Shown in pieces: positions 18,569 through 34,977 of a stretch of DNA of 45,407 nucleotides. The position numbers and the translations under genes were made by a program. How positions within the stretch are numbered: position 1 is the first letter of the stretch; each line of letters starts with the position of its first letter. Below the pieces are notes generated by a model that was not told where the DNA came from, ran no database searches, and worked only from the letters and a program-made list of their open reading frames with translations. Source of the DNA: a virus; IMG/VR virus record IMGVR_UViG_3300017713_000011, positions 1 through 45,407 of that record. The stretch is one strand, 5' to 3'.

Positions 18569-19462
18569 TTATTTTATAGGTTTACTTAAGCCTTTTAATA
18601 CTTGAGTAAACTCTTCTATCTTAATACTAGACAATCTAATCTTAGCTTTTCTAGCTTCAGCAAATCTTTCTTTCTTAAATCTTTGTACAATGTATTCTGG
18701 TATATTAGATCTTGAAGCTATTACACCGTAAGCTATCCACTTGTATACAGCTTCTTCAGCAAACTTATGTACCAGCATCTCACCGTCAGTGCCAAGACCA
18801 TCACTTATATAGTGTAGCACTATGGTTTTACCAGAAAGATTAGAGCCAAAGTGTATATGTTTAGTTCTTTCGTCTATATAAAACGTACCATTTTGATGAG
18901 CATGTTGTGGATCTAATCCATATCTTCTACCAAACTGATGTATAACATCGTCATCTGTTTGGTAATCATTCGTAGATGCGTCTATAAATTCAGATCTATG
19001 GGTTTTAAAATTATCCCAAGTGTTAGAATTATTATTAGTCGCATCTTGTTCTTTAAGAGCAGCATTATCAGTAAATTCGTACGCACCGCTAGCAGTTTGT
19101 GATATAGCAAACGGGTTAGAGGTTTTACCTGTAGGATATAAGTTTCTTTCAATACCATCAGAACCGCTAATAGTAATTTTTACATAATTAACATAGTCTT
19201 GAGGTATAATCATTTTTAAAGTGTTGGGTACTTCTATTTCTTGAGACTTAACAGATCTAAATATATCGTAACTAAATTCTTGTATAGCCCTCATGCCATG
19301 AAACTGAACTTCAGTTCTGTTAACTTTGTTTATTATTTTACTTTCACCCACATATGTGTACATAAATGCTGATATAATATGATCTAAGCTAACAAATTGA
19401 TAATCACCAAATGAGCTACCGCCGTAGTATGAACTTTGAGTTGTACTGTCTAGTAGTCCCAT
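18569..19462 (-). CDS. Connector/neck-like structural protein
   Basis: 297 aa, starting MGLLDSTTQSSYYGGSSFGD. It is a mixed alpha/beta, soluble-looking protein with no signal peptide and a basic C-terminal helix (KKERFAEARKAKIRL). It sits between the 240-aa protein and the 1856-aa hub with gaps of 2 and 5 nt. Short-tailed phages place head-to-tail adaptor proteins here. No motif defines its exact role, so it should be read as a probable neck or tail-adaptor component. Confidence 0.55.
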   Translation of the reverse strand: MGLLDSTTQSSYYGGSSFGDYQFVSLDHIISAFMYTYVGESKIINKVNRTEVQFHGMRAIQEFSYDIFRSVKSQEIEVPNTLKMIIPQDYVNYVKITISGSDGIERNLYPTGKTSNPFAISQTASGAYEFTDNAALKEQDATNNNSNTWDNFKTHRSEFIDASTNDYQTDDDVIHQFGRRYGLDPQHAHQNGTFYIDERTKHIHFGSNLSGKTIVLHYISDGLGTDGEMLVHKFAEEAVYKWIAYGVIASRSNIPEYIVQRFKKERFAEARKAKIRLSSIKIEEFTQVLKGLSKPIK

Positions 19463-19464
19463 AA

Positions 19465-20187
19465 TTAATTATTTTCTTGAGCTTTAGTATTTAATCTGTC
19501 TCTCATTGCTACTTGGTTTAATGAGCCGTCTTTAATAGTTATTCCAGAAAGCTCTAATATTCTCATTACTAAATTATTTTCTTCTGAATCGTGTAAGTCA
19601 AAATTTTGTGCATCACCAGCAGAAGAATTGTATAAAGCTTTATTGTTAACCACAACGTATGTCCATTTAGGCGTTGCTGGTTTTTTAAAAAATGTAGTAG
19701 TAATAACAGATGGTGATGTTGGACTTATTAAAATATTTCCATCATTTTCTCTGCAAAAATTTGGTCTATCTGCAGAAGCTTGTAGTAGTTTGTTTTTTTC
19801 AAAAGCAATAGTATCTCGGTGGCTTACTTTTTCAGCTTCAGAAGAAATACTTACACCGTTGACAGTATAACTTAAAACAATAGAATCAATTAAATAAACA
19901 TCAGAGCTAACAGAATATTTATTACCTGAAACTAACGATAAAGAATTAATTGAAGATACTCTATGTACGTCTAGCTTTTCTTCTAATATATCAACGCTGT
20001 CTACATAGTCATCGGTTTTAGTTTGATCAAACTGGGCTCTAGTTAAGTCTTTAAAATAACTATGAAATATCTCTAATTGAGCCTGATCAGCAAACAAGTT
20101 AAACTCTTGAGGTGTTATATAACCTCTTTGTTCTTTATTAGCTAAAGCTAAAACTTTTTGATATACACTATTTATATTTATTGCCAT
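19465..20187 (-). CDS. Probable head-tail adaptor protein
   Basis: 240 aa. The N-terminal helical segment (VYQKVLALANKEQRGYITP, then a Phe-rich helix reaching FHSYFKDLTRAQ) is followed by a beta-rich core. This layout recurs in marine phage structural proteins found just before the tail hub. It overlaps nothing and is spaced 1 nt from the secreted thioredoxin-fold gene upstream. Its partner is probably the 297-aa protein, which begins 2 nt later. No enzymatic motif; role inferred from position. Confidence 0.55.
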   Translation of the reverse strand: MAININSVYQKVLALANKEQRGYITPQEFNLFADQAQLEIFHSYFKDLTRAQFDQTKTDDYVDSVDILEEKLDVHRVSSINSLSLVSGNKYSVSSDVYLIDSIVLSYTVNGVSISSEAEKVSHRDTIAFEKNKLLQASADRPNFCRENDGNILISPTSPSVITTTFFKKPATPKWTYVVVNNKALYNSSAGDAQNFDLHDSEENNLVMRILELSGITIKDGSLNQVAMRDRLNTKAQENN

Positions 20188-20188
20188 A

Positions 20189-20521
20189 TTAAAATGCCTC
20201 CATTATTATTTCGTCAATAGCATCTTGAAGCTCTTTTCTTGTAGCTTCCATAGTCATCATAATATTTGCTTGAAACCTTTTAGCTTCTTCGTTGTTATTA
20301 AGTACGACTAATGTAGGTACTACCACTATTTTATAATCACTTGCCCAACGCGCATCCGCAGCTATGTCAACTCTCTGTATTTCACAGTCAGTTAATTTAG
20401 GTAACCACTCTACAGCGTTTGCTTTATTAAAGCCTGCATTAAATTCTACAACTACTAAGCCTTCAGAAAAGTCTTGAGCAAAGCAGTTGATAGTAAGTAA
20501 AAAAGTTATTAATCTTAACAT
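20189..20521 (-). CDS. Secreted thioredoxin-fold protein lacking both redox cysteines
   Basis: 110 aa. Residues 1-16 (MLRLITFLLTINCFAQ) form a signal peptide with probable cleavage after AQ. Residues 25-36 (VEFNAGFNKANA) align with the thioredoxin active-site stretch V-D-F-W-A-x-W-C-G-P-C, but both catalytic Cys positions are Asn (N32 and N35). A cis-Pro motif (VVVPTLVVL) follows at the expected distance. The fold call is fairly strong, whereas redox activity is not expected. Thioredoxin is a subunit or partner in some phage enzymes, but here the signal peptide points to the periplasm. It closes a four-gene envelope cassette (spacing 2 nt from the upstream gene). Confidence 0.7.
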   Translation of the reverse strand: MLRLITFLLTINCFAQDFSEGLVVVEFNAGFNKANAVEWLPKLTDCEIQRVDIAADARWASDYKIVVVPTLVVLNNNEEAKRFQANIMMTMEATRKELQDAIDEIIMEAF

Positions 20522-20523
20522 AC

Positions 20524-20808
20524 TTATTTTAATTTATCAATCTTATCCTCCATTCTAATCATTTGACTTTTGATGTCTTTAACATCATCTTGCGTAGACA
20601 TGATAGTTTGTCTTATCAATTGATCTTTCATATCATACTCCATTCTTGTAATCTCTGGATCTGGAGGTAAAGGTAATTTTTTAGCTTCTGCTATATCTCC
20701 TTGTAAGACAAACCAACCGCTAATTACCGCTGCCATTATAACACCTATACCTGCTAATGTCTTTATACTTACCTGTACAGACGTGTCTTCATTTAATTCT
20801 TTTGCCAT
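20524..20808 (-). CDS. Small membrane-anchored coiled-coil protein
   Basis: 94 aa. One transmembrane helix (IKTLAGIGVIMAAVISGWFV, about residues 14-34) follows a short N-terminus. After a Pro-rich linker (KLPLPPDPE) comes a heptad-like helix to the C-terminus (MKDQLIRQTI...VKDIKSQMIRMEDKIDKL). The helix resembles inner-membrane spanin or holin-accessory arrangements, but no family is recognised. The gene lies 2 nt from each neighbour, between an outer-membrane barrel gene and a secreted thioredoxin-fold gene, so an envelope role is likely. Confidence 0.6.
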   Translation of the reverse strand: MAKELNEDTSVQVSIKTLAGIGVIMAAVISGWFVLQGDIAEAKKLPLPPDPEITRMEYDMKDQLIRQTIMSTQDDVKDIKSQMIRMEDKIDKLK

Positions 20809-20810
20809 TG

Positions 20811-21899
20811 TTAAAATATTACGTAGTTAATTCCTATACTGAAGTTGTGCCAGTCTCTGTTCCAGTATTTGTTATATCGACCTTCTACAAAAGCACCTAA
20901 GCTTTTATTAAATCTATAACCAAATATTAAACCGCCAGAGTAATCAACCCATTGCCCACCGTTGAACTTGTGATATGAGTATTTGTTTTTTGTTTCTAAG
21001 TGATACGGCATTACGTTTGCCCATGAGTGAAACCAAAAGTCTTTTGTAAAATGATAATAATCCAAACCCACAACAATAGAGTATTCTAATATATTAGGTA
21101 TAGCACTTTTTTCTTTTTCTACGTATTCATCTATTACTTGCGGTATAACAACTTCCTCCCAAACCTCTTGACTGTTAGCAACTACAGTGCCATCAGGCGC
21201 TGAGTATATACCATCTAAACTAATATCATAACCTTCTTGTAACGCTAAGTAAGTATAATGTAATGAACCGTTGTCTAATATCCAGTCTGCTAATGGATCA
21301 AACCCGTATGGCTCAGACAACCTCTGAACAGCTCCTGCGTTTAAAGATAGTTTACCATCACCAAACTGTTTTCTGTATCTCTCAGATGCCTCAAAATACT
21401 TTATATCTGCAAAGCCATCTTCAAGATATTCTACCTTACCAACCCATTTGTCAGCTACGTATCTAACAAAGTGGTGTTGATTAGTATAGTTTACACCTAG
21501 TCTTCTTACAAAATCAGCTTCGAACAAATATTCAAAGCCATCAACTCTACCGATTGTCGCGGCATCAGAGTAAGAATTTTCTGTACCATTATAAAAAGTG
21601 TTGGCTCTGTTCTCATATCCAAATCGTTTTATTTTTCTAATACCAACAGACATAGAGTAATCAAACGGCGTTTCAATTAACTGTTGCTCTAGTAAACCTG
21701 AAGATATAGAGAAGATCTGATCATCACCTAGTGATGTGCCACCGTTTACCGCTGCGTAAAATGTAGAGTATTTAAATATACTATTTAAACCTTGAGCGCG
21801 ACAAGATTTTGATAATCCTATTAATATAAGAGAAAATATTATAACAAGACCTATACTAACTAAAAACTCTAGTACAAAACTTTTAACAAACTTCATCAT
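20811..21899 (-). CDS. Predicted outer-membrane beta-barrel protein
   Basis: 362 aa. It starts with a long hydrophobic signal sequence (about residues 8-34, with likely cleavage after CRAQ). The mature protein alternates aromatic and polar residues, has frequent Tyr/Trp/Asn turns, and closes with a strand ending in a terminal Phe (FSIGINYVIF). These are hallmarks of Gram-negative outer-membrane barrels inserted by the BAM complex. The start codon overlaps the stop of the T9SS-substrate gene (ATGA, 21896-21899), so the two are translationally coupled. An adjacent Met at 21896 is an alternative start. A barrel gene within phage structural genes is unusual. It may alter host surface properties after infection; function is inferred. 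Confidence 0.7.
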   Translation of the reverse strand: MMKFVKSFVLEFLVSIGLVIIFSLILIGLSKSCRAQGLNSIFKYSTFYAAVNGGTSLGDDQIFSISSGLLEQQLIETPFDYSMSVGIRKIKRFGYENRANTFYNGTENSYSDAATIGRVDGFEYLFEADFVRRLGVNYTNQHHFVRYVADKWVGKVEYLEDGFADIKYFEASERYRKQFGDGKLSLNAGAVQRLSEPYGFDPLADWILDNGSLHYTYLALQEGYDISLDGIYSAPDGTVVANSQEVWEEVVIPQVIDEYVEKEKSAIPNILEYSIVVGLDYYHFTKDFWFHSWANVMPYHLETKNKYSYHKFNGGQWVDYSGGLIFGYRFNKSLGAFVEGRYNKYWNRDWHNFSIGINYVIF

Positions 21900-24148
21900 C
21901 TCTTAATAACTTTTTTAGTTGCTGTTGTACCTTGGTATCTTATTGTAAAACTATAAACACCTGACTCTAATAAACTCATATCTAATATGTTTAAACCTTT
22001 ATGAGTTTGACTTGGTTTTACTTTTATTACTAATCTACCAGTCATATCGTAAACCTCTATAGCTACTTTACTTTTAGTAAGTATGTTTAAGTAATCATCA
22101 ACAGGTACAGGATATAAAGCTACACCGTTACTTCTCATTAAGTCTCTAACATCAAGCTCAGAATCATCGTTACACCTCCAGTATAACTGCTGACACTTTT
22201 CATCCCAACTATTATCACAACAGTAAGGATCTACCATTATTACCCAAGCGTAGCACGTATCATTTAACCAGTAAGGAATACCAGGACCGTCAGTACAACC
22301 TGCATCGTATAAACAACTATAACTTTCTGTATTAGCAAATTCATCATAGTTGTAAGCTTCGTTATCCATACAACCCTCTATAACTTCTAAACAATTATCG
22401 TTACTAGTGTTTGCTAGAGGATCATAATTAAACGCTAATGAGTCTACACATCCATAAAGTATTTCAATGCAAGAGAAGTCATCTGTGTTAGCCTCAGCGT
22501 TGTAATTGAAAGCTTCTGGATCTGTACAACCCAATACTGTTGTAAAACAACCACCGTTATCAACGTTAGCACTTGGATCGTAGTTGTCTGCTTCAGGGTC
22601 CATACAACCAAAGTACAAGCAAGATCCATCCGATGTATTAGCTAAGCCATTGTAGTTCCAAGCTACGACATCCATACAGCCAACAACTACAGGTATACAA
22701 CCCTCGTCGTCTACGTTAGCTAAAGAATCATAATTAAAAGCTAACTCATTTGTACATCCGTAAACAGTTTCAATACAGTCACCGCTATCGGTGTTAGCAT
22801 TAGCGTTATAGTTTAATGCGTCTTCATCCATACATCCTTCTACTACATCTATACAGTAATCACCACAGTAAGGTAAAGCAGTATATACGTGCCAGAACGG
22901 AGGCTCAAAAGGTTGAAGTGCACCAGCACCGTTTAGCGCAAAAGGGTTTGCACCACCTGATATTAATAAGCTTAAGGCATCGTTGAACAGAAAGAAAGAG
23001 TTGTGCATAGTTTGAAACTCTAATTCTTCTTGTGGTACTTGTGGTGGCCCTACTTCAAAGTATTTTATTTCAATCGGTATATCTGTTCTAAGATATAACC
23101 ATTTAACATCTTCGTATATACCAGGTCCTAACGTATATACACCGATTATACTGTCGCCTTGTGTAATAACTAAATGTGAATCACCCCAGCCATCGCCACC
23201 ACTATCGTTTAATACTAACCTGTATTCACATATAGGTATTATTTCATTAAGCGTAGCTAGTGAATCATAGTTAAAAGAGTTCCAGTTTATACAACCTACA
23301 ATATGAGGTGTTATACAACTACCAGTATCTACTTGCGCAAAAGGATTAAACTCTACATAGCTGTTATCCATACAGCCATACTCTACTGGTATATCACAAT
23401 GCTCTATCCATATTGCGCCTGAGTAAGCCGCACTACCAAAGTTTGCATCTTCTAGCTCCCATATAACATCAGGGCTACCGCAAGGTTCTAAGTCTGCGAG
23501 TATAACAAAGCCACCGTCGTCGTTATCATTACTCATAGATCCGACCATACCATCACCGTAAGTATCACTTAGTATAAGTTCAACTCCTGTTTCAGGTACA
23601 CATAACTGATAAGGTATTGTTGTGTTTGCTTGGTCGTAAGAATATTCTCCAGCTTGTACGCTTTCTACTGGTTGACCATTTGATATGTCTGTGAGGATCC
23701 AGCCTGTCTCACTTGGGTATTGATCTAGTGTTACTTCAAAAAGCATTTTAGCTTCACCGTCTTGACATTGTGTGTTAGCACATCCGCCATTGTCAACTTC
23801 TGCTAAAGGATTATAGTTTATAGCTTCAGGATCCATACAACCTATAATTGGCATGTCGCACGATCCGTCTTCAAAGTTTGCTTCAGGTACAAAGTTTAAA
23901 GCCATAAAATTCATGCAACCAAATACAGTGTCTAGTATAGGTAGTGGGCAATCACCGTCATCAAAGTTAAACGCAGGGCAGTTGAAGTAAACGTCGTAAC
24001 CGTTCCATGAGTAAGCACCGTCATCACAAAAACCATCGCCTATCCAAGTTTCAACACCAGTAACGTCGTTACCATTGCAGTCAAGTGTAGCATTTTGAGC
24101 TAAAGAAGTTGTAGTAAAAAGTAGTAAAAGGTAAATCGTTTTTTTCAT
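21896..24148 (-). CDS. Secreted repeat protein with T9SS C-terminal sorting domain
   Basis: 750 aa from the ATG at 24148, chosen because a classic signal peptide begins there (MKKTIYLLLLFTTTSLAQ) and an earlier in-frame start would overlap the upstream gene. Order of parts: an LNR-like Cys segment (WIGDGFCDDG ... FDDGDC, about residues 35-65); Cys-rich repeats of the form GC-M/T-D-x-x-A-x-NY-x-x-x-A-N-x-D-x-x-x-C, about eleven units; two interspersed CUB-like beta domains containing DTYGDG and GGDGWGD; a Cys/Trp motif (DPYCCDNSWDEKC); and a final ~75-residue type IX sorting domain (ALYPVPVDDYLNI ... IEVYDMTGRLV ... LESGVYSF ... KKVIKR). T9SS exports such proteins across the Bacteroidota outer membrane and the sorting domain is removed on anchoring. 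Gene context is entirely phage. Confidence 0.85.
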   Translation of the reverse strand: MKKTIYLLLLFTTTSLAQNATLDCNGNDVTGVETWIGDGFCDDGAYSWNGYDVYFNCPAFNFDDGDCPLPILDTVFGCMNFMALNFVPEANFEDGSCDMPIIGCMDPEAINYNPLAEVDNGGCANTQCQDGEAKMLFEVTLDQYPSETGWILTDISNGQPVESVQAGEYSYDQANTTIPYQLCVPETGVELILSDTYGDGMVGSMSNDNDDGGFVILADLEPCGSPDVIWELEDANFGSAAYSGAIWIEHCDIPVEYGCMDNSYVEFNPFAQVDTGSCITPHIVGCINWNSFNYDSLATLNEIIPICEYRLVLNDSGGDGWGDSHLVITQGDSIIGVYTLGPGIYEDVKWLYLRTDIPIEIKYFEVGPPQVPQEELEFQTMHNSFFLFNDALSLLISGGANPFALNGAGALQPFEPPFWHVYTALPYCGDYCIDVVEGCMDEDALNYNANANTDSGDCIETVYGCTNELAFNYDSLANVDDEGCIPVVVGCMDVVAWNYNGLANTSDGSCLYFGCMDPEADNYDPSANVDNGGCFTTVLGCTDPEAFNYNAEANTDDFSCIEILYGCVDSLAFNYDPLANTSNDNCLEVIEGCMDNEAYNYDEFANTESYSCLYDAGCTDGPGIPYWLNDTCYAWVIMVDPYCCDNSWDEKCQQLYWRCNDDSELDVRDLMRSNGVALYPVPVDDYLNILTKSKVAIEVYDMTGRLVIKVKPSQTHKGLNILDMSLLESGVYSFTIRYQGTTATKKVIKR
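22310..23925 (-). repeat. About eleven Cys-flanked tandem protein repeats (GCxD...NYN...C)
   Basis: Within the T9SS-substrate gene, units open with GC(M/T/V/I) and close about 19 residues later with Cys, with a conserved NY(N/D) and A-N/E-x-D core. They are split into an N-terminal group of four and a C-terminal group of seven near-contiguous units. A pair of Cys per unit suggests disulfide-stabilised small modules. Similar units occur in secreted proteins of marine Bacteroidota and in some large viruses. Boundaries are approximate. Confidence 0.75.
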
Positions 24149-24161
24149 TGAATTATTTGTG

Positions 24162-24449
24162 TTAACATTTCCATCTGCGACGTGCAGCACATAGTCTTTT
24201 TTTAGGGGTTTTTTTACAATCTATATTGTGCTTTTTCATTTGACCTAAAGATCTAGCGCAGTAAGATTTTTTTCTTGATCCACCACCAGGTTGCGGAGCT
24301 CTTAAGTTACCACCGGTCTCTTTGTTATAAGCAGCTCTACCAGCAGCAGTCATACCAGCACCTTCTTTAGCACTAAGAAAATGTCTACCTTTACCTCTAG
24401 TAGTTTTTCTAAGTTTTTTACATGGATTATTTTTCTGTATATATGCCAT
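24162..24449 (-). CDS. Small basic protein with C-terminal CAR...RWKC motif
   Basis: 95 aa, starting MAYIQKNNPCKKLRK. The start at 24449 is chosen because its ATG overlaps the stop codon of the upstream gene (TAATG). It is rich in Lys, Arg and Gly, with a GAGMTAAGRAAYN segment, then SYCARSLGQMK and a terminal ARRRWKC. This resembles a family of small basic proteins in marine phages and algal viruses that I recognise by pattern only. Four Cys residues could bind metal or form disulfides. The role is unknown; a virion or DNA-associated role fits the position and charge. Confidence 0.65.
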   Translation of the reverse strand: MAYIQKNNPCKKLRKTTRGKGRHFLSAKEGAGMTAAGRAAYNKETGGNLRAPQPGGGSRKKSYCARSLGQMKKHNIDCKKTPKKRLCAARRRWKC

Positions 24450-24736
24450 TACTTTTCTCCACACTTTTTTTCTGGATTACCAACTTGTCGCCAGTCTTGT
24501 TTAACCCAGTCTTTTAAGTTTTTACTACCTGTACCAGAAACATTGCTACTACCACTTCTTCTGTATTCACCTCTACTAGCCGCTGCTCGTTTAGCGTTAA
24601 TAACTTTTTGTCTTTCTTCTTTAGACATACTATCTATTTTAGCTTTAGGTAAGCATACTTTTCTAGTACCACCGCCTTTAACTTTTTTAATAGACGATCT
24701 TAACTTATTAGGATGATTTTTTTGAACGTACGCCAT
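24449..24736 (-). CDS. Small basic protein, N-terminus related to next gene
   Basis: 95 aa, starting MAYVQKNHPNKLRSS. The first dozen residues match those of the following gene (MAYIQKNNPCKKLRK), after which the two diverge. It is Lys/Arg/Gly/Ser-rich with a VCLPKAKIDSMSKEERQK helix and ends GNPEKKCGEK. It overlaps the 100-aa gene upstream by 29 nt and its stop overlaps the next start by one base. Family and function are unknown. The shared start suggests a common targeting or assembly tag. Confidence 0.6.
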   Translation of the reverse strand: MAYVQKNHPNKLRSSIKKVKGGGTRKVCLPKAKIDSMSKEERQKVINAKRAAASRGEYRRSGSSNVSGTGSKNLKDWVKQDWRQVGNPEKKCGEK

Positions 24737-25010
24737 GTTCTTTTTTTAATTGTTCTTTAGCTTCTTTAGCTAATCTAGCTTGTTCCATCTTACCCATAAC
24801 TTTAGCTCTTTGTTCTAACACGGTAAGTATTTGGATTTTCCTAGCGTATGGTTTGTTTATGTTTTTTACTTTAGCTATTGTTTTTCTAGCGTCAGCAACT
24901 GTAGCGAATTTTATAGATACAGTATCTTTAGGGTTTTCATCTGTGTATAATCTTCTGCCACTACCTTTAGGTTTTTTACCTGTACCAACTAAAGGATCTT
25001 TCCTACTCAT
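24708..25010 (-). CDS. Small basic protein of unknown function
   Basis: 100 aa, Lys/Arg/Ala-rich. Starts MSRKDPLVGTGKKPKGSGRR, then a beta segment (KDTVSIKFATVADARKTIAKV) and a helical basic tail (EQARLAKEAKEQLKKEHG). It overlaps both neighbours (8 nt upstream, 29 nt downstream), consistent with a coupled mini-operon. No signal peptide or membrane helix. A nucleic-acid-binding or virion role is possible from charge alone. Confidence 0.6.
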   Translation of the reverse strand: MSRKDPLVGTGKKPKGSGRRLYTDENPKDTVSIKFATVADARKTIAKVKNINKPYARKIQILTVLEQRAKVMGKMEQARLAKEAKEQLKKEHGVRSKKSS

Positions 25011-25365
25011 CTTTTTTACCTAATCGTTTTCTAACTATGTTCATAACAGTTTTCATTTTACTAGCATAGCTAAGATTTTTACCTCTGTTAAAAACAACTT
25101 GTTGATTTAAACTACTAATTATTTTTGATAAGTTACCTTTACGAGACTTAATCATCCAGCTAGCAAGAGCAGATGGTGAAAGTTCTTTAAACTTACCTTT
25201 AGCATCAGGCGCATCAGAGTGTTGAAACTTACCCATCTTTTTATTAATAGGTGAAGAGTCTACTATACTCTGCAGCTTATCAGCTTGTTTAGCGTGAGCA
25301 TTACTAGCTTTTCTAAGCTGGCTAATAACACCTTTTATTTGTTTATTTCTTAACTTAAAACTCAT
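25003..25365 (-). CDS. Small basic helical protein of unknown function
   Basis: 120 aa from the ATG at 25365. A GTG two codons further upstream is possible, but the ATG overlaps the stop of the upstream 52-aa gene (TAATG), so it is preferred. Helical, Lys-rich (KLRNKQIKGVISQLRKASNA, then HAKQADKLQ) with an internal segment LSPSALASWMIKSRKGNLSK that looks like a small helical domain. Resembles unannotated phage proteins in composition; function unknown. Confidence 0.6.
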   Translation of the reverse strand: MSFKLRNKQIKGVISQLRKASNAHAKQADKLQSIVDSSPINKKMGKFQHSDAPDAKGKFKELSPSALASWMIKSRKGNLSKIISSLNQQVVFNRGKNLSYASKMKTVMNIVRKRLGKKDE

Positions 25366-25523
25366 TAGCACTTACCTGCTTTCTGTGTTTTAGAAGCCCA
25401 CATATTAGCATACGCACTAGGGTAAACTTTAAACTTTTTTCTTGCAGCAGCTTTACAGCTAGCAGATAATTTAAGTTTAGCAGGTGATGCTTTCTTCATA
25501 GGATGAGACATTTTAAAAGCCAT
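25365..25523 (-). CDS. 52-aa basic protein with VYPSAYAN motif
   Basis: A short frame translating as MAFKMSHPMKKASPAKLKLS followed by ASCKAAARKKFKV, YPSAYANMWA and SKTQKAGKC. The 'RKKFKVYPSAYAN.WAS' segment recurs as a conserved motif in small marine-phage proteins that I recognise by pattern only. The frame is supported by the one-base TAATG overlap with the next gene and by a 3-nt gap from the upstream 70-aa gene. Function unknown. Confidence 0.6.
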   Translation of the reverse strand: MAFKMSHPMKKASPAKLKLSASCKAAARKKFKVYPSAYANMWASKTQKAGKC

Positions 25524-25526
25524 AAC

Positions 25527-25739
25527 TTATTTTTTAGCAAACTTCTCTACGCCTGATATACCGAAGCAACCAAGTACAACCCAAACAAACGAGTTGTATA
25601 CGTATTCGTTTATTATTAAATCTTGACCTACCCAGCCAGTGGCTAGGTCAGCAACCATTATTAAACACATAACTGCAAACGCTATAAAACCTACCACAGC
25701 TTTTTCGTTCCAGTTATTATCGTTTTTAAATATTTCCAT
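25527..25739 (-). CDS. Two-TM small membrane protein, possible holin
   Basis: 70 aa with two hydrophobic segments, about residues 15-34 (VVGFIAFAVMCLIMVADLAT) and 46-62 (VYNSFVWVVLGCFGISG), and charged ends. Size and topology fit class II holins, but many small phage membrane proteins share them. Its start overlaps the stop of the 136-aa gene by one base. A better holin candidate lies at 36278-36673. Confidence 0.5.
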   Translation of the reverse strand: MEIFKNDNNWNEKAVVGFIAFAVMCLIMVADLATGWVGQDLIINEYVYNSFVWVVLGCFGISGVEKFAKK

Positions 25740-26680: not shown

Positions 26681-26709
26681 TTAAAAGAAACGGTTATGAT
26701 AACCGCTTC
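26681..26709 (-). terminator. Intrinsic terminator overlapping the end of the 276-aa gene
   Basis: On the minus strand, GAAGCGGTTA pairs with TAACCGTTTC (one G-U wobble) around a 3-nt loop and is followed by TTTTAA. The stem covers the last codons and the stop codon (26694-26696), an economical arrangement. The U run is short, so efficiency is uncertain. Confidence 0.7.
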
Positions 26710-27524
26710 TCAATATTAGTATATACTTCCATACCTTCATCAGTTTTAAACCACTGTGCAAGTGCGGAGTACGGGTGTTCGTCAAACGGAACTGTCATAA
26801 GTTTTCTATCGTTAGATCCCCACATAAAGTAGCGTTGATCTTGTGATAACTTTATAATGTTTAGTTCAGCCGCTTTAATACCAAAGTTTCTTAGTTGAAC
26901 ATTGTCATCGTTAACTAACTCTAAAAATAATTTAGGGTTTCGTTTAGCGTAAAGCAACAAATCTCTTCTAAGTTCTTTAGAACTCATTTCTGAAACTTTA
27001 GAACCTACTTCGACTCTCATAACTGCTTCAGCTAAATCTATATCTATATTTTTAGCAGCGTTTAAAGCTTCGATTTCAAACTCTAACCAATCAAGTTGAG
27101 ACTCTGCAACTTCAACTGGTTTATGCTCGTAGTATAATTGATCTTTATGTGGGTGGTAAAAAGATAATAACTTTTGTAATACAGTTTTTTCTTTAGGCAC
27201 GTATAAGCTTCCAGATCTAAAAATTATATGCTCTAATCTTTGATCACCTTTCATTTCGTCTACAAAACAGGTTTTTTGATTTTGACAATACTTAAGTTCT
27301 CTTTCGTAACCTTTTGATTCATCAAAATAGTATATGTTAGCAGCTTTTATAGATCTTGAAACAGGCTTTTTACCTCCTTTCAAGTAATACATCCTATCTT
27401 TTATCTCCCAAGAAAGTTTAGCTTCTTTTTGAATTACTTGTTTTGGTGGTGCAACTACAGTTTCTACAGTTTGCTCCACTACTTGTTCAACCGCTTTATC
27501 GGTTGTTGTTTTCTTTTTAGCCAT
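26694..27524 (-). CDS. Phage structural-module protein of unknown function
   Basis: 276 aa. A Lys/Thr/Val-rich, low-complexity N-terminus (residues 1-35) precedes a folded region with many aromatic and charged residues (YYLKGGKKPVSRSIKAANIY), a Cys pair (CQNQKTCF), and a helical C-terminal half. It lies directly after the capsid terminator and is bounded by its own terminator, so it is expressed separately from the capsid gene. Possible head-completion or minor capsid role, from position only. Confidence 0.55.
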   Translation of the reverse strand: MAKKKTTTDKAVEQVVEQTVETVVAPPKQVIQKEAKLSWEIKDRMYYLKGGKKPVSRSIKAANIYYFDESKGYERELKYCQNQKTCFVDEMKGDQRLEHIIFRSGSLYVPKEKTVLQKLLSFYHPHKDQLYYEHKPVEVAESQLDWLEFEIEALNAAKNIDIDLAEAVMRVEVGSKVSEMSSKELRRDLLLYAKRNPKLFLELVNDDNVQLRNFGIKAAELNIIKLSQDQRYFMWGSNDRKLMTVPFDEHPYSALAQWFKTDEGMEVYTNIEKRLS

Positions 27525-27544
27525 AATATAATATAATAAAAATT

Positions 27545-27576
27545 AAAAAATAAGACCGAGGCCGAAGCCTCGATCT
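27545..27576 (-). terminator. Intrinsic terminator after the major capsid gene
   Basis: On the minus strand, AGATCGAGGC pairs with GCCTCGGTCT (one G-U wobble) around a UUCG tetraloop and is followed by TATTTTTT. It sits 10 nt beyond the capsid stop codon. The stable tetraloop and T-rich tail make this the clearest terminator in the window. Confidence 0.9.
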
Positions 27577-27585
27577 AAATATAAA

Positions 27586-29106
27586 TTACTTCATTAATAA
27601 GAAGTTGTTTGCTCCTTGAACAACTAAACATCGTTCAGTAAGCATGTGAATTTGCATTGCATCTAAAGCAGATGTAGCAGCTCCAACTGAACCAGTAGTC
27701 CAAGTCTTCATTCTTCTATCATCAGTTTGAGAAGCTCTGTAACGCACGTGTAAGAAAGGACGCTTTAAGTTTTTACCTAAAGACTGGTCATACACTGTAG
27801 AAGTACCTGCAGGTATAACAACACCTCTAATAGCGTTAGCAGCATTAGCAGCATTAATTGATCCACGAGTAGCATGGTCATTTAAGTATCTAAAGTCAGA
27901 TTTGTAGAAGTCGTAAGAACCTCTTCTGAATCCAGAGAAACCTAAATTTAAAGCCATATCTTCATCGTTTTCAAATACTCCATAAGAAGTACCACCAGCG
28001 CCGTACGAGTTCATAGAAGCTAACATATCGTCAATAGCTAAAGAAGAAGCTCTGTTTACAAACATCATGTTTTCTTCAATAGCACCTTGCTTGTCAAACT
28101 CTGCTAGCATAGCATCAAACTCAGCTAAATCAGTAGCAGCATTAACACCTGAAATACCAGAAGAAACATTACCTCTAGCTTCAATAGCAGCAAATAAACC
28201 TTCAGTACCTGAATTGTTTTCAGTAGCTACAGATCCAGGCAGTATATGAGAACCGTCAATTAATGAACTTGACGCTGTTACTTTTTCAGCTTCAAGCATA
28301 GACATTTCTAAGTAATCTGTAAATCTTGCTCTAGTATCAGACTCAGCTTTTAAGTACCATAAGTAACCTGAAGCACCTTGCTCAGAAGTAATTTCAATCC
28401 AACCAATACGAGATGCATCTGATCCAGATACTTCGTAGTAATCTTTCATTATAATTGGTTTGTTTGAAAAAGTCTTGAAAGATGGCTCGTTAGCACCTCT
28501 AGAATCTTGCTCAGCAGTAGAAGTACCACCAACCATATATTTAGTACCTTTACCATATTCAGATCCATATACTAAAATAGTACAAGAATCATTATCGTTA
28601 GAATCTGCTATGTTTGCAGATCCGTAAGGAAGCACATCAATAGTAGCTGTACTTGCCGCAGCTGTAACAACTAAACATTTGTGAACACCAGCAGCGTTAG
28701 CTATAATAACAGTATCATTAACACGAATACCGTGATCTGTTCCTTTAACTAAACCATCAATATCTTTTTGAATAGTTACTTTAGTGGTAGCACCAGTACC
28801 AGCATCAGCACCAGCAGGTCCTGATCCACCAGTACCATCGTTAGTAGCGATCTTACCAGTGTAAGATAAATGTAATCTACCTTGCTCTGACCAAATAACT
28901 TGATCAGCAGTCATTGCCTCTTCAGCACCTACTTGAGATAAGAAACCTGAAATAGTTCTGTTACCGAACACTTCAGCTTCTTTTTCCATCAAGTCTGGCA
29001 CGTATTGTTGACCCCACCCGCCTGAGCCGGATAAGTCTAAGTAATTCGAAGCCGTCGCCTGTTGTACAGCCGATGGCACCGTATTAGTTGCACCTGTAAT
29101 TGCCAT
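27586..29106 (-). CDS. Major capsid protein
   Basis: 506 aa, starting MAITGATNTVPSAVQQATAS. The early segment GQQYVPDLMEKEAEVFGNRT is typical of large capsid proteins of marine tailed phages. Residues of about 125-190 (GIRVNDTVIIANAAGVHKCL and onward) look like an inserted beta domain. The C-terminal part has the alternating hydrophobic pattern expected of an HK97-type core. Order is portal, scaffold-like, this gene, then a strong terminator, which is the canonical arrangement. A HK97-like fold is inferred, not shown. Confidence 0.82.
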   Translation of the reverse strand: MAITGATNTVPSAVQQATASNYLDLSGSGGWGQQYVPDLMEKEAEVFGNRTISGFLSQVGAEEAMTADQVIWSEQGRLHLSYTGKIATNDGTGGSGPAGADAGTGATTKVTIQKDIDGLVKGTDHGIRVNDTVIIANAAGVHKCLVVTAAASTATIDVLPYGSANIADSNDNDSCTILVYGSEYGKGTKYMVGGTSTAEQDSRGANEPSFKTFSNKPIIMKDYYEVSGSDASRIGWIEITSEQGASGYLWYLKAESDTRARFTDYLEMSMLEAEKVTASSSLIDGSHILPGSVATENNSGTEGLFAAIEARGNVSSGISGVNAATDLAEFDAMLAEFDKQGAIEENMMFVNRASSLAIDDMLASMNSYGAGGTSYGVFENDEDMALNLGFSGFRRGSYDFYKSDFRYLNDHATRGSINAANAANAIRGVVIPAGTSTVYDQSLGKNLKRPFLHVRYRASQTDDRRMKTWTTGSVGAATSALDAMQIHMLTERCLVVQGANNFLLMK

Positions 29107-29123
29107 AATTTTAAATTTTTAAA

Positions 29124-30308
29124 TTAGCGTTTATTTTTAATTTTGAATTTTAATGAACTAGAATCTTCACCAAGCACTCTTACTTTTATTCCTCCAGCGT
29201 TAACTTCTCCGTGAGACGACCTCGCCCCTGTATTAACGTTTTTAGCTTGGGCAACGCTTTGCTTTATAGCATCAGCTTTACCTTGTTCGTAAAAGTGTTT
29301 AGCGATAGCATCTGGGTTCATCGCTGTAAATAGAGATTTATGATAACCTTTAGCATCTTTAATTGTGTTATCTTCACCAATAAACTTATTGACAAAATTG
29401 TTTAAATCGCTTTGTGTTGTTTTAACCTCATCGGTATTCTTAACATTGTAACGATACTTTTTGTCTCCAACATTGAAATCAAAACCTTTGAACTCGTTGT
29501 TAAAGACAGCATCTGTTCTCTGTCTGAATGCTTTTGTACTTCGCTCTGTAGCTTCTTTTTGAGCTTTAGAGTCTTTGTTATATCTATTAAAGAAGTCTAC
29601 TGCTTTCTGTTGTTCTTCAGTGAGTTTACTGCCAGCTTTAATTTCTTCGTAGTAAGTACTTTTTTGATTTTCTAAATACTTGCGAGCTTGTGCAGCTTCT
29701 TCTTTTAGTGCTATCTTTTTTCTTTTAACATCTCTATCTTCTTCTACATCTTCATCATAACTAAACTTTTCTTCTAACAAAAAGCTTCGCTCATCTTGCG
29801 ATAGGTGTGGTTTTGTTTGCTTATAATACTCATCAAGAACATCAGTTGTATCTAACTTGCTAATGTCAGTATTTAATCTAACATAGTCTTCTAAATCACC
29901 ACCTGTGTCATCCATAAAGTCTATTAACTTCTGAATATTCTCTGGTAGAGGTTTACCTGTGGCTTCAGCTTCGGCTACTGCTTCTTCAACTATTTCTTCT
30001 ACTTGATTAACTTGAGCTTGAACTTCTTGTTCAGTTACCTCTTCTAATACTGGTAGCTCTGCTTCCTGTACTTCTGCTTCCGGCTGTACTTCTTCTTGTT
30101 CTTCTGTGGCTCCGGGGTTTTCATCGCTTCCCACCACTCTTGCTGGGTCAGCTTCTGTTTCTTGAGTTTCATTTGGTTGTTGTACTTTATCTAGGTCTAT
30201 TTTAATAACGCTATCATCTCCAGCGCTCTGGAATTTAGATTCATCAATAGTGTTTTCTACTGGTTGATCTACAGTGTCTTCAACTGCATCGTTAATTTCT
30301 TCTTGCAT
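29124..30308 (-). CDS. Scaffold-like acidic protein
   Basis: 394 aa. The N-terminal 120 residues are extremely acidic (repeated Glu, Gln and Val) and low in complexity. The middle is predicted helical (KRKKIALKEEAAQARKYLEN, NQKSTYYEEIKAGSKLTEEQ). The C-terminus is basic (KVRLGEDSSSLKFKIKNKR-like, ending KIKNKR). It lies between portal and capsid genes, the standard position of scaffolding proteins, which are acidic, helical and bind capsid through a basic C-terminus. No protease motif seen. Role inferred from composition and position. Confidence 0.65.
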   Translation of the reverse strand: MQEEINDAVEDTVDQPVENTIDESKFQSAGDDSVIKIDLDKVQQPNETQETEADPARVVGSDENPGATEEQEEVQPEAEVQEAELPVLEEVTEQEVQAQVNQVEEIVEEAVAEAEATGKPLPENIQKLIDFMDDTGGDLEDYVRLNTDISKLDTTDVLDEYYKQTKPHLSQDERSFLLEEKFSYDEDVEEDRDVKRKKIALKEEAAQARKYLENQKSTYYEEIKAGSKLTEEQQKAVDFFNRYNKDSKAQKEATERSTKAFRQRTDAVFNNEFKGFDFNVGDKKYRYNVKNTDEVKTTQSDLNNFVNKFIGEDNTIKDAKGYHKSLFTAMNPDAIAKHFYEQGKADAIKQSVAQAKNVNTGARSSHGEVNAGGIKVRVLGEDSSSLKFKIKNKR

Positions 30309-30342
30309 AATAAAATTATATAAAATATTAAAAAATAGTGGA

Positions 30343-32745
30343 TTACATATCTAAACCTACTCCACCTGTTACTATATCATTACCTGATGATTCAAACTTT
30401 TTAATCGGTTTACCCTCTTTTACTGCTTGTTGATTTTCTACTTGCCTGTCTACGCGTTGATCTTTGCGATCTTCTCTCATAGATTCTTGCTGACTTTTAA
30501 CAGATCTTTCGCCTGATTGCAGTCTAGAATTAAACTCAAACTCTAGCTTCATTAAATCTTTCTTTACCTGCGCTTCTTGCTGTAAGTATTCTGCTTTAAA
30601 TCTACTTTTAGCTTCTTCTAATTGCATTTGAGTTTGACCTTTAGCTTGATCTTTTTGTATTTCAATTTGAGCTGCAGCTTGTTGAGCTTGTTGATTAGCT
30701 TGAGACTGTGCTTTTATGTTTTGTTGTTTTTCTTGCTGGTCTCTGTCTTTCTTCTTTTTCTTTTTAACTTTTAAAAGTTGATTAGCAAGTTTTATATTAC
30801 GTACCTCTCTAATATCTATAGCGTCATCAAGATCTATTAAACCTTGACCAAGAGCTACTTGAATGTTATTTTCAAGCATTGCTTTTTCTTCTTCGTCAGG
30901 TGTTAGCTCTATGAATATACCAAAGTCATAAAGATGAAGTTCTTTCAACTCTTCAACTGTAGCCACATTGTGAGCACCTATAGCCTTTATGAAAGCTTCT
31001 TTAGTTGGTGAGTATTCTACAATATCAGATATTCTAAGTGATAAACACTCTGCGGCTTCAGCTGTTAAAAAAAGCATTGATTGTAATATATGTCTAGTGG
31101 CAGTATTGCTATTTGCTGCAGCTAGTTTTTGTACACCAACTAAGGCATTTTTATCTGGTAAACTACCATCTCTAGCTTCATTAAGCCCGGTTACATCGCG
31201 TATCATTTGTAAGTAGTAGTTGTAAGTAGTTATTAAAGTTTGAAGCTTATTACTACCGCTACCGTTTTGTATTTGTTGTATTGGTACTTTACCTGGATTA
31301 GGATTACCTTCTGAAGTAAATGATCTACCAATAACAGAACCAGTCTGAAAGAACATGTTTAAAGCCTCTTGTGGATTATAGTTCGTACCGTTACCTAAAT
31401 CTATTTCAGCTAAACCATCAGCATCTAAGTATACACCGTCAGGAACCATGCGATTCATTACTTGCTGAATCTTTAAATGTGTTAATTGTATAGTATCTGC
31501 AAAACCAGTTATTCTACTAACAAGAGACTGTATTCTACCGTCGTACATCCTAGGTGCAACAATATTGTAATTCATTTTAATTTTACCAAAGTCAGACTTA
31601 GATCTCATCATATTTGAAGCCATCTCCCACTTTAGCAACTTGTCTGTACCTAAAACTAAAGCGCCTTCATACATTACTTCTACAACTCTGTCTAGTCTAG
31701 AAAAATCTCCATCCATATCTTCAGGAGGGTTAAACGTATCGTCTTTCTTTATAACCTTGTCAGCACCTGTGCCAGTCTTTTTAATTTTATAAACATCATT
31801 AGCATTTGTTTTAAAGTTAAAGTATAAAACCGTAACCTCATTACTTCTTTGCCTTACTGTTGATTCTACGTATGAAGGTGATTTTTTAAGTATCTCAGAA
31901 ATCTGTGATTCAGTTAAGTTTGGAAACTCTTTGACTAGTTCATTTATAGGCATTGTTTTAACTTCACTTATATAATACACATCTTCAAAATACGGTGAGT
32001 TAGTGTAAGAATAAACTAAGTTAGCTGGATCTACATATTCTACCTTAGCTCCATCGCTATAATTAAAGTTAGTTTTAGTAGCACCTATACCTATAGTAAC
32101 TAAATCATATAAACACCTTCGCTTAATTAAATCATAGTCACAACCTTCCATTAACGTGTTTACAGCTTGTTCTTGCGCAAGTTCAATTGCTTGCTTGTAA
32201 TCAAGCTGCATATGTAGTTCTAACTCTTCTGTAGTCTCTGGTACTTTTTCTTTATCGTTCTCATATGCGTTAATACCAAACTCTTTCTGTACTAAATCAT
32301 TATAGTCTTTAGATCTAATGTCTTTAAGCATAGACTCCATATACTTAGTTCTTTTACTTACGCCACTAGGATCTTGAGAAAAAGCGCTTATCTCGTAATT
32401 TCTCTGAGACATACCGTTAACTACAATGTCTACGAATTTAGGTATTATAGGCACAGGCTTCCAGTCTAAGTTTAAGTAGCTTAAGTCACCATTTATAGAT
32501 AACTCGTTTTTATACTTTTCTATAGACTGCTCACCTCTAGCATAAAGTCTTAAGTTGTGAAAGTTATTTACAGAGTTACCATATCTACTACGTTGACTAT
32601 AACCTTCTTGATAACGAGAAGTCTTACCGCCAAACCACTCTGACTGTATAGCTCTAGCAACCTTAAGACCATATTCTTGCGTCATTTTTTCTAAATCACT
32701 AACCGCTTGAGAAGGAAAGTAATCAGAGCCACTCGCGTACGCCAT
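30343..32745 (-). CDS. Portal protein
   Basis: 800 aa. It directly follows TerL, with a 3-nt gap, and precedes the scaffold-like gene, the usual order. The N-terminal two thirds hold conserved features of large portals (LDWKPVPIIPKFVDIVVNGM, FGKIKMNYNIVAPRMYDGRI). The C-terminal ~130 residues form a long Lys/Gln/Glu-rich helical region with a poly-Lys run (KVKKKKKKDRDQQEK), comparable to the extended barrel of P22-type portals that reaches into the capsid. It would form the dodecameric ring through which DNA is packaged and ejected. Confidence 0.85.
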   Translation of the reverse strand: MAYASGSDYFPSQAVSDLEKMTQEYGLKVARAIQSEWFGGKTSRYQEGYSQRSRYGNSVNNFHNLRLYARGEQSIEKYKNELSINGDLSYLNLDWKPVPIIPKFVDIVVNGMSQRNYEISAFSQDPSGVSKRTKYMESMLKDIRSKDYNDLVQKEFGINAYENDKEKVPETTEELELHMQLDYKQAIELAQEQAVNTLMEGCDYDLIKRRCLYDLVTIGIGATKTNFNYSDGAKVEYVDPANLVYSYTNSPYFEDVYYISEVKTMPINELVKEFPNLTESQISEILKKSPSYVESTVRQRSNEVTVLYFNFKTNANDVYKIKKTGTGADKVIKKDDTFNPPEDMDGDFSRLDRVVEVMYEGALVLGTDKLLKWEMASNMMRSKSDFGKIKMNYNIVAPRMYDGRIQSLVSRITGFADTIQLTHLKIQQVMNRMVPDGVYLDADGLAEIDLGNGTNYNPQEALNMFFQTGSVIGRSFTSEGNPNPGKVPIQQIQNGSGSNKLQTLITTYNYYLQMIRDVTGLNEARDGSLPDKNALVGVQKLAAANSNTATRHILQSMLFLTAEAAECLSLRISDIVEYSPTKEAFIKAIGAHNVATVEELKELHLYDFGIFIELTPDEEEKAMLENNIQVALGQGLIDLDDAIDIREVRNIKLANQLLKVKKKKKKDRDQQEKQQNIKAQSQANQQAQQAAAQIEIQKDQAKGQTQMQLEEAKSRFKAEYLQQEAQVKKDLMKLEFEFNSRLQSGERSVKSQQESMREDRKDQRVDRQVENQQAVKEGKPIKKFESSGNDIVTGGVGLDM

Positions 32746-32748
32746 AAT

Positions 32749-34977
32749 TTATTGTTTTATTATTTTAGATGATATTCCTTTATTACTATATTTAGATATA
32801 CTAATACCTAATGGTTGTCTTTTAGTTTCTGGGTTTGGTCTATATAAATGTCTATTACAAGCCATCACAGCTAAGCCGCTACTAATAGAAGCATCGTGCT
32901 TAGTTCTTTTGTTTATATCAAACTTACTCCAGTCATTTAATGTTTCATTAAAATACATAGTACCATATGTACCATCTTGAAGCAAACCTATGTGATCATT
33001 AATATACATTTCAATAGCAGCAGCGTGAGCTTGCTTTATATCTTCACTAGAGTTTGGCATACCACCAACTTCTTTTTCTGTAACAGAAAGCTTGTTCCAT
33101 ATCTTGTCAGGCCTGTTCATACTAAACCCTCTGTAACCTCTACGTCTTAAATAGTATAGTAATCTAGGTTTATTGTTCTCTGCAAGTATTGGCATACCGT
33201 AAAATACTAAAGACATTAGCACATCTTCAAAAAATATCTCAGCGGTCTGTGGTCTAGCTATATATTCTAAAAAGAAAGTGTTAGCTGGAGCATCTTCCAT
33301 ACTAAACTTAGTTAGTCCGTGCAGCGCTCCTTTAGACCCTTTATTATCAACAGTGCCGCTAATGTCGTAACTATCGCACCCGAAAGCTCCAACGTGTTCA
33401 TTGCCAGGATATTTAATTCCATTTTTTAATATTACGTTATTCTGCATGTTACCGTTAGGTACCCAACTAACTTTAAATCTACCATTAGGATCTGGATTAA
33501 AAACTACTTGCGTGTCTTTAACACCGTTAACCCATTGAAAGTTACCTACAGTTAATACAGATGAATTTCTATTTCCTTCATTGTAATCAACTTGCTCGTA
33601 GATTTTAACAAGATTAAATAAAGAGTTTTTCGTTTCATCTCTGAATGCGTGCTCTTCTGTTCTAGGAAACTGTCTGTAAAATTCATTAAGTGCATCTTGA
33701 TCTTCTTTTAAACCTTCAACTTCGTTGTTCCAATAATCAACAACACCTATATCTATTAATTCACCATGCGGCCCTCGAACATCATTACTTGGTGTATCAA
33801 AAACCGGAAGTCCGAACTCATCAATAAAACCTTCATAGTTCCACTCCATTGGGATAAACAAAGAATATAAACCAGACTTTGTTTGGCCATTTCTATTTCT
33901 CTTCGAGACATTTGAGTCATTGTAAAGCTTTTTAAAATTATCGCCACCTTTGTCTAAAGAGTTTGATGTCGATCCCATCATACACTTACCTACTATTCTA
34001 CCACCTAACCTTAAACAAGTTTTAGTTACTCGCCAGTTGTTTTGTATATTATCAGGCTTTTCCCACTTACCGCTTTCATCGTGTACTAGTAGCGCTAGCT
34101 TTTCACCATCATAGCTGTTATCGCCAGTATTCTTCCAGTCAATAGTAGTGTCTAGTCCTTGCATATCATCTTCAACCTCGTTCTCACGCATCTTACGACG
34201 CGTAAACTTTTTAGCTGGTATACGATAAGCAAGCTCAGACTTTGGACGATCCATACCGTCTTGTATAGGCTTAAAGAAAAACGGATAGTTAATACTTATA
34301 GGTACTATCTTATCCGTAAACATTTTCTTCGCGTCAGCTCCACTTTTAGACAACACCCCAAATCTACTATCACTTGCTAACGTGGCTAAGTTAACGGTTT
34401 CAGCCGAACTCATAAACGAAAAACCAGATCGTCTATTCTTTAAATAACACATACCATAGCAACGTCTGTCTGCTTTGCAGGCTTCCCAGAATATAAAAAA
34501 CAACCTATTTGCTTCTCTAAAGTCTGGAGCACCTACATCTATTTTACTCCATTGTAAATACATATAGTAGCTACCAGGTAGATATGTAGGCTTACCATGG
34601 TTTGTAAACCAAAAACCGTTATCCCTTCTATTAAACTCTTGATCTATATAGCTGTAGTACTTTTCTTTAAAATCTTTAGGATACCCCTCCCAGTCAAACC
34701 TAGTTTTTATTTTAGAAAAAGCATCTGGTGTTTTAAACTTACACCACTTCTGTTCTGACTTTTTACTAGAGCATTTATATACATCTTTAGGAGGTTTAGG
34801 CAGAGCTATGTTTAAACCTTGTATCTGTATTATATCACCTATTTGACCAGACTTAGATATAACTACAACATCGCTTTGTTTGTCATAGCCATATTCCCAC
34901 TTCTTACCTTTATTAAGCCTGTTGATAGTGGTTAGCTTTACTGGCTCTACTACTTTATATAATGATTGTTCGTACAT
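32749..34977 (-). CDS. terL: Terminase large subunit
   Basis: 742 aa. A deviant Walker A segment lies at about residues 180-188 (KNRRSGFSF). Walker B LALLVHDE at 294-301 is followed by a coupling-motif-like segment GSTSN at about 335-339. A nuclease-type acidic cluster follows (FGCDSYD, residues 532-538, with later acids in TAEIFFEDV). These are the ATPase and RNase H-like nuclease parts that cut concatemeric DNA and pump it into the prohead. It starts at the stop of the TerS candidate (1-nt overlap) and is followed by the portal gene. The Walker A deviation is common in phage terminases. Confidence 0.85.
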   Translation of the reverse strand: MYEQSLYKVVEPVKLTTINRLNKGKKWEYGYDKQSDVVVISKSGQIGDIIQIQGLNIALPKPPKDVYKCSSKKSEQKWCKFKTPDAFSKIKTRFDWEGYPKDFKEKYYSYIDQEFNRRDNGFWFTNHGKPTYLPGSYYMYLQWSKIDVGAPDFREANRLFFIFWEACKADRRCYGMCYLKNRRSGFSFMSSAETVNLATLASDSRFGVLSKSGADAKKMFTDKIVPISINYPFFFKPIQDGMDRPKSELAYRIPAKKFTRRKMRENEVEDDMQGLDTTIDWKNTGDNSYDGEKLALLVHDESGKWEKPDNIQNNWRVTKTCLRLGGRIVGKCMMGSTSNSLDKGGDNFKKLYNDSNVSKRNRNGQTKSGLYSLFIPMEWNYEGFIDEFGLPVFDTPSNDVRGPHGELIDIGVVDYWNNEVEGLKEDQDALNEFYRQFPRTEEHAFRDETKNSLFNLVKIYEQVDYNEGNRNSSVLTVGNFQWVNGVKDTQVVFNPDPNGRFKVSWVPNGNMQNNVILKNGIKYPGNEHVGAFGCDSYDISGTVDNKGSKGALHGLTKFSMEDAPANTFFLEYIARPQTAEIFFEDVLMSLVFYGMPILAENNKPRLLYYLRRRGYRGFSMNRPDKIWNKLSVTEKEVGGMPNSSEDIKQAHAAAIEMYINDHIGLLQDGTYGTMYFNETLNDWSKFDINKRTKHDASISSGLAVMACNRHLYRPNPETKRQPLGISISKYSNKGISSKIIKQ

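Follow-up and report, generated by a model that had tools for sequence, protein, structure and literature searches.

Phage-encoded cargo proteins of the type IX secretion system (T9SS) have been described before. Cryophage carries three genes for T9SS type A cargo, and a hijack of the host system was proposed for them (Bellas et al. 2020, PMC7468147), while crAss-BACON phages were reported in 2019 to encode proteins with a T9SS sorting domain (PMC6949934). In a survey of spanins, phages of Bacteroides and Croceibacter were among those without spanins, and it was considered that an outer-membrane protein might replace the outer-membrane spanin (PMC6139136). Here, we analysed IMG/VR virus record IMGVR_UViG_3300017713_000011, the whole of which (45,407 bp) is referred to as the window. 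The gene at 21896-24148 of the window, termed gene A, is almost certainly a phage gene for T9SS-type cargo that belongs to a conserved phage module. This module consists of genes A, B, C and D, usually together with gene E. An earlier note on this sequence had recognised the phage cargo gene and missed its place in the operon-like module. Its statement that no phage system of this kind was described does not hold in view of the Cryophage and crAss-BACON cargo.

The earlier note located gene A correctly and left out the strand (minus). The gene and its parts are as follows:

21896-24148, minus strand: gene A, a T9SS type A cargo protein of 750 amino acids (aa) with an ATG start (TIGR04183 and PF18962 above cut-off; homologs in viral contigs)
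24095-24148, minus strand: putative signal peptide, residues 1-18 (sequence, by eye)
23948-24082, minus strand: LNR/Notch-like Cys module, residues 23-67 (read from the sequence, conserved in the A alignment)
22313-23920, minus strand: span of eleven GC...C repeats (residues 77-97, 103-123, 258-278, 285-307, 438-458, 464-484, 490-510, 514-534, 540-560, 566-586 and 592-612)
22172-22300, minus strand: conserved C-terminal Cys module, residues 617-659 (alignment, sequence)
21899-22117, minus strand: T9SS type A sorting domain, residues 678-750 (TIGR04183, PF18962, predicted fold)

A longer open reading frame (ORF) with a GTG start at 24190 is in the same frame as gene A. The N-terminus MKKTIYLLLLFTTTSLAQ/N looks like a signal peptide, as had been claimed, and is clear by eye in A as well as in its relatives. 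For the LNR/Notch-like Cys module, no match was found in Pfam. Within residues 77-612, exactly eleven GC...C repeats of 21-23 residues each were counted, the same number as reported before. They occur in more than one block, with two pairs flanking 'GDGWG'-type domains and seven repeats in tandem. A repeat-like pattern matched ten times in A compared to at most two times in 2000 shuffles, and the protein contains 38 cysteines.

The C-terminal domain (CTD), which had been assigned to the T9SS type by reading, exceeded the cut-offs of both sorting-domain models. Residues 678-750 matched TIGR04183 with an E value of 1.9e-12 and 47 bits (cut-off 23), and the match to PF18962 had an E value of 3.2e-11 and 43.8 bits (cut-off 27). 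An AlphaFold2 model of the last 75 residues (predicted local distance difference test, pLDDT, of ~83) aligned to the sorting domain of NucA (8glk_D) with a Z score of 12.0 and a root-mean-square deviation of 1.3 Å over 72 residues. The same model also aligned to FspA (8glj_D, Z 10.6), mirolase (8qb1, Z 10.4) and RemA sorting domains. Comparison of gene A with its relative in locus L002 yielded a rate of nonsynonymous substitutions (dN) of 0.033 and of synonymous substitutions (dS) of 0.66, corresponding to purifying selection with dN/dS of ~0.05.

Capture of the gene from a host, which had also been considered, is borne out in part. GC repeats of the type found in A are present in 53 of 148 marine Flavobacteriales genomes, and at least one Flavobacteriales protein with such repeats has a sorting domain. 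The full architecture and the neighbouring genes, in contrast, are viral, and their conservation extends across hundreds of contigs. A search of plasmids for A found none. Giant proteins with A-type GC...C repeats are encoded just upstream of the module in two loci from related phages (L262:8922-17981, 3019 aa; L263:3-15602, more than 5199 aa), with no signal peptide at the single start seen. The repeats may serve the virion as well as the cell surface. A relative of A in another locus (L228:9843-12050) retains the C-terminal Cys module, but the YPNP with which the sorting domain begins is missing from its tail, and the T9SS signal may thus have been lost in this sequence.

The partners of gene A in the module are listed below:

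20811-21899, minus strand: gene B, a predicted outer-membrane beta-barrel of 362 aa from a virus-specific family (AlphaFold2, VIA-align; at least 100 IMG/VR relatives)
21896-21899, minus strand: stop/start overlap of A and B, 4 bp
20524-20808, minus strand: gene C, 94 aa, with one N-terminal transmembrane segment, a Pro-rich linker and a charged helical tail (alignment, hydropathy)
20189-20521, minus strand: gene D, a secreted thioredoxin-fold protein of 110 aa in which CxxC is missing (alignment; profile match to thioredoxins with an E value of 4.8e-9)
25527-25739, minus strand: gene E, a small membrane protein of 70 aa upstream of A (family in 37 of the first loci; adjoins A-B-C-D in T4-like phages)

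The -4 spacing of A and B recurs in 145 of 190 A-B pairs. The genes are arranged as A-B-C-D at 162 loci; the arrangements C-D-A-B (22 loci) and B-C-D-A (12 loci) also occur. All these counts are descriptive and not independent, since the loci overlap and are related. Searches of IMG/VR yielded eight relatives with A and at least 100 with B, 80 of which were kept as loci. Among 50 records fetched by B and not by A, TIGR04183 scored above its cut-off in 49, in a gene that immediately precedes B or lies close to it; the remaining record (L090) has a recognisable sorting domain at the end that was not scored. Profile scans confirmed at least 500 stretches for A and at least 560 for C. At some loci B-C-D is not preceded by A, so these three genes may form the core of the module.

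No match to B was found in 50,697 phage records at an E value of 1e-5. When one genome per species was searched for 84,980 species, B was found on three contigs, all of them in metagenome bins, where the full or nearly full module lies amid phage genes. Likewise, only a single one of 296 Flavobacteriales genomes contains B, and the same applies to 395 genomes from the class that includes genome G060; in both cases, it is one of the bins with a phage contig. The module is carried by phages with a TerL of the phrog_6681 type and, separately, by T4-like phages with a Gp23 capsid. In the tree of B, phages with a TerL 66-69% identical to that of the window nest among phages with a TerL ~48% identical, from which it follows that the module moved between backbones. 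The module is thus viral, conserved over hundreds of contigs and has been transferred between phage backbones.

The backbone of the window is that of an elemovirus-like podovirus, with homologous TerL, portal, major capsid protein (MCP) and neck genes in the same order. Its TerL is 63.6% identical to that of an uncultured podovirus from Manatee Spring and ~47% identical to those of Flavobacterium elemoviruses. Phages of Cellulophaga, Tenacibaculum and Maribacter, which are cultured podoviruses like those of Flavobacterium, are further relatives. As the earlier note had read, gene A is flanked by structural phage genes: PHROGs matches identify TerL, portal and MCP upstream and two virion proteins downstream. 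In elemovirus elemoE as well as in ctfjg026, the homologs of the window genes at 26694-27524 and at 19465-20187 directly adjoin each other; in the window, these genes are separated by ~6.5 kb that contain the T9SS gene and its partners. Loci L003, L015, L016 and L017 have the same insertion with the same neighbours. The arrangement thus recurs in independent contigs such as L003; the earlier note had proposed to search related phage genomes for the same gene.

Protein B has a signal sequence and a predicted barrel of about 12 to 14 strands (AlphaFold2, pLDDT 74). VIA-align placed TamA first (Z 11.6, 180 residues, 3.6 Å), with OmpG, CymA and autotransporter barrels within ~1 Z, and B is therefore claimed only as an outer-membrane barrel; a relationship to BamA/TamA was dropped on the same grounds. 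An assignment as PorV-like was not upheld, as 8gl6_F, a chain of a T9SS complex, stood low in the Foldseek list (E value 8.8e-3). PorP/SprF was rejected as well, with no NCBIfam match at an E value of up to 1, and so was a disulfide-linked track protein, for which B lacks a conserved Cys. Searches of B against Pfam, NCBIfam, PHROGs and the sequences of the PDB gave nothing above noise. Among 55 sequences, B has ~80 invariant positions; its conservation is far higher than that of A, and comparison with L003 shows purifying selection (dN/dS ~0.07). The viral protein A0A516LKJ4 in BFVD matches the model of B with an E value of 1.1e-24, a template-modelling score of 0.67 and 23% identity. B was not found in Tenacibaculum phage PTm1 or Prevotella phage Lak-A1, and tblastn with divergent B sequences and with a consensus of C against phage records gave matches at chance level only.

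The charged tail of C is conserved in the alignment. Its matches to PHROG spanin and holin families had E values of 0.02-0.04 and were treated as noise, and a single weak match of one C relative to an Rz-like PHROG (E value 0.041) is not regarded as evidence. For D, a profile matched solved thioredoxins with an E value of 4.8e-9; the Pfam score of the single sequence was just below the cut-off. A signal peptide is present in most of the aligned rows of D. The CxxC motif (CGPC stretch) is absent in all 31 of these rows, and one other Cys is conserved in 26 of the 31. Neither B nor D has a lipobox. In a simple scan for ORFs with a lipobox, none was found in the window, and 17 of 217 loci had one near the module.

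The genes around the module are relevant for its possible role:

36278-36673, minus strand: holin with three transmembrane segments (phrog_3427), ~12 kb from the module here and adjoining it in many relatives
26694-35258, minus strand: head and packaging genes upstream (elemovirus gp25 homolog, MCP, portal, TerL; homology, PHROGs)
18569-20187, minus strand: virion structural genes downstream (phrog_14543, phrog_13977; PHROGs)
24162-25371, minus strand: four small basic proteins between E and A (syntenic in L002, L003, L005 and L015-L017)

An endolysin or holin is located within 3 kb of the module in 52 of the 84 loci with at least 3 kb of flank on both sides. In elemo-type phages, an M15 endolysin (phrog_894, PF08291) and a holin with three transmembrane segments lie by the module, whereas T4-like phages have an unrelated endolysin with PG_binding and Amidase_2 domains in this place. 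The T4-like endolysin follows D in L094, L165 and L167 and precedes E-A-B-C-D in L144 and L250. In locus L092, the module is preceded by an endolysin of the PG_binding and Amidase_2 type and followed by a holin. A role in lysis is suggested mainly because the module pairs with two unrelated endolysins in two backbones.

Further observations concern the surroundings. Elemovirus relatives that lack the module encode a protein of 181-207 aa near or beside the endolysin (L010:15491-16114, L011:18183-18728), with an N-terminal transmembrane segment and a C-terminus that appears beta-rich by eye. Homologs of this protein are absent from the window and from the module loci; as a candidate one-protein envelope bridge, it could possibly be a replacement for the module. 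In the window, the first of the small basic proteins (24162-24464, minus strand) belongs to DUF6321 (PF19846, E value 7.8e-14), and relatives are found near the module in 31 loci. Adjoining the holin, a gene at 36673-37533 (minus strand) encodes a protein of 286 aa with an N-terminal HEEHH motif (IAHEEHHLKQF) and a PAP2 phosphatase domain (PF01569, E value 3.7e-10), possibly a lysis or lipid-active enzyme. The phage has its own GroEL (chaperonin models with E values of ~1e-146) and a small co-chaperonin-like protein at 37954-39796 (minus strand); elemoviruses and ctfjg026 likewise encode both. The records behind L028, L041 and L018 have stop codons within the TerL frame, namely one TGA each in G020 and G028, and two TAA plus one TAG in G011. 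Such stops point to an intron, a split gene or errors.

By computation, we thus found a sorting domain with its fold, a conserved operon, a virus-only distribution, transfer between backbones and frequent unrelated endolysins as neighbours. Judging from its sequence, A is very probably exported by the T9SS of the host during infection. Use of the host system, which the earlier note had proposed, is the natural reading of a type A cargo protein, because the phage kin are cultured podoviruses of Flavobacterium, Cellulophaga, Tenacibaculum and Maribacter. The module would be a virus-specific, horizontally moving set of genes in phages of T9SS-bearing marine Bacteroidota. From the sequences we infer late expression as well as the localisation of the products: late in infection, A would pass through Sec and then through the type IX system of the host to the cell surface, where its CTD would be removed. 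B would be inserted in the outer membrane and D retained in the periplasm, with C (and E) in the inner membrane. Acting jointly, C and B might then fill the role that lipoprotein spanins have elsewhere, with D between them, and A would act on or through the surface layer.

We therefore regard it as a reasonable working proposal, somewhat short of probable, that the module performs the outer-membrane step of lysis. In a more specific form, which we put forward tentatively, it could be an undescribed route of breaking or remodelling the outer membrane, in which a virus-only trans-envelope complex of B, C, the redox-dead D and the T9SS-delivered A replaces lipoprotein spanins and is shared by unrelated phage lineages. 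Several points weigh against a role in lysis. Nothing in A points to membrane disruption, the fold match of B is generic for outer-membrane barrels and the periplasmic part of C comprises only ~56 residues, which is short for a spanin. A lysis gene is missing within 3 kb in 32 of the 84 flank-complete loci, and lysis neighbourhoods contain other late genes, too. In the window as well as in L003, L015 and L017, the module is located between head and neck genes; the holin of the window is ~12 kb away and no endolysin was recognised in the window. Given the B-C-D loci without A, A may also be accessory.

The main rival is superinfection exclusion or receptor masking, which we consider rather unlikely. 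A and B on the surface of the infected cell would block further adsorption, with C and D helping in their assembly; host adhesins may moreover face competition from A for the T9SS. Such a role was proposed by Bellas et al. for the Cryophage cargo (PMC7468147). Phage-exposed Flavobacterium columnare acquired mutations in sprA and gld genes and was phage-resistant (PMC9233685), so surface proteins delivered by the T9SS matter for phage entry; the resistance of these mutants, together with the repeats that A shares with large marine Flavobacteriales proteins, one of them with a CTD, is in line with a function at the surface. Masking does not account, however, for B, C and D moving together with unrelated endolysins, and the far stronger conservation of B than of A is unusual for a surface decoy.

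Alternatively, A and B could be a moron captured from a host, with surface proteins that serve the infected cell or competition and have nothing to do with lysis, as may be the case for the variable Cryophage cargo. The repeats and the sorting domain of A are of host type, and the module site of the window is empty in elemoviruses and ctfjg026. This explanation is nevertheless improbable, given that the gene set and the overlap are fixed across hundreds of contigs, that B lacks a cellular relative and that purifying selection is strong. A further alternative is a sensor of lysis timing, in which conditions or additional phage at the surface would be perceived by A and B and relayed via D and C to the holin, analogous to the lysis inhibition of T4 by another route. 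The predicted parts are distributed over the surface, the outer membrane, the periplasm and the inner membrane; C combines a transmembrane segment with a conserved charged tail, and E and holins are nearby. With a holin that is not nearby in every locus and no homology to T4 lysis-inhibition proteins in the family searches, we assign a sensor a low probability. Finally, an artefact of assembly or binning that joined host DNA to a phage contig, which had been raised earlier and for which it speaks that the window is an uncultured and probably incomplete virus record, is refuted to near certainty because the insertion recurs with the same order and neighbours in the independent contigs L003 and L015-L017, and the module is also found in other phage types.

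How phages of Bacteroidota, which are among the commonest bacteria of ocean and gut, pass the outer membrane is largely open. Being virus-only, common in uncultured marine viruses and tied to the T9SS, the module offers concrete genes for this question and a marker for phages of T9SS-bearing hosts. It also suggests that T9SS mutation could alter late steps of infection besides entry. The phage of A0A516LKJ4 could provide a culturable system.

In the open-access literature, no phage module combining the T9SS with outer-membrane lysis was described; most subscription papers and bioRxiv were outside this scope, which makes the absence weak evidence. Two-component spanins (Rz/Rz1), encoded beside endolysin and holin, resemble the module in its predicted layout of an inner-membrane protein with an N-terminal transmembrane segment and an outer-membrane partner, and in many loci, though not in the window, the module likewise lies near an endolysin or holin. 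The outer-membrane part of the module is a predicted beta-barrel instead of a lipoprotein, however, periplasmic and surface proteins are added, and no sequence relationship was shown. Lom of phage lambda represents a type of phage-encoded outer-membrane protein. Like it, B is a phage gene for an outer-membrane barrel, but it belongs to no Pfam, NCBIfam or PHROGs family and is paired with T9SS cargo. SprB and SprF of gliding bacteria are similar to A and B in that a T9SS cargo gene lies beside a gene for an outer-membrane barrel; B falls outside the PorP/SprF model and is without conserved cysteines, unlike SprF and PorG (PMC12635249). With T9SS type A cargo (TIGR04183/PF18962), A shares a putative signal peptide and a CTD predicted to fold like those of NucA, FspA and mirolase, but it is phage-encoded, and a virus-only outer-membrane barrel is encoded with it in a fixed operon. 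The T9SS proteins of Cryophage and crAss-BACON phages are, like A, encoded by phages, equipped with sorting domains and thought to use the machine of the host. In those phages, the cargo consists of single, variable enzymes or of BACON proteins, whereas A belongs to a conserved set A-B-C-D found across unrelated phages, and it is this module, rather than phage T9SS cargo as such, that appears to be new.

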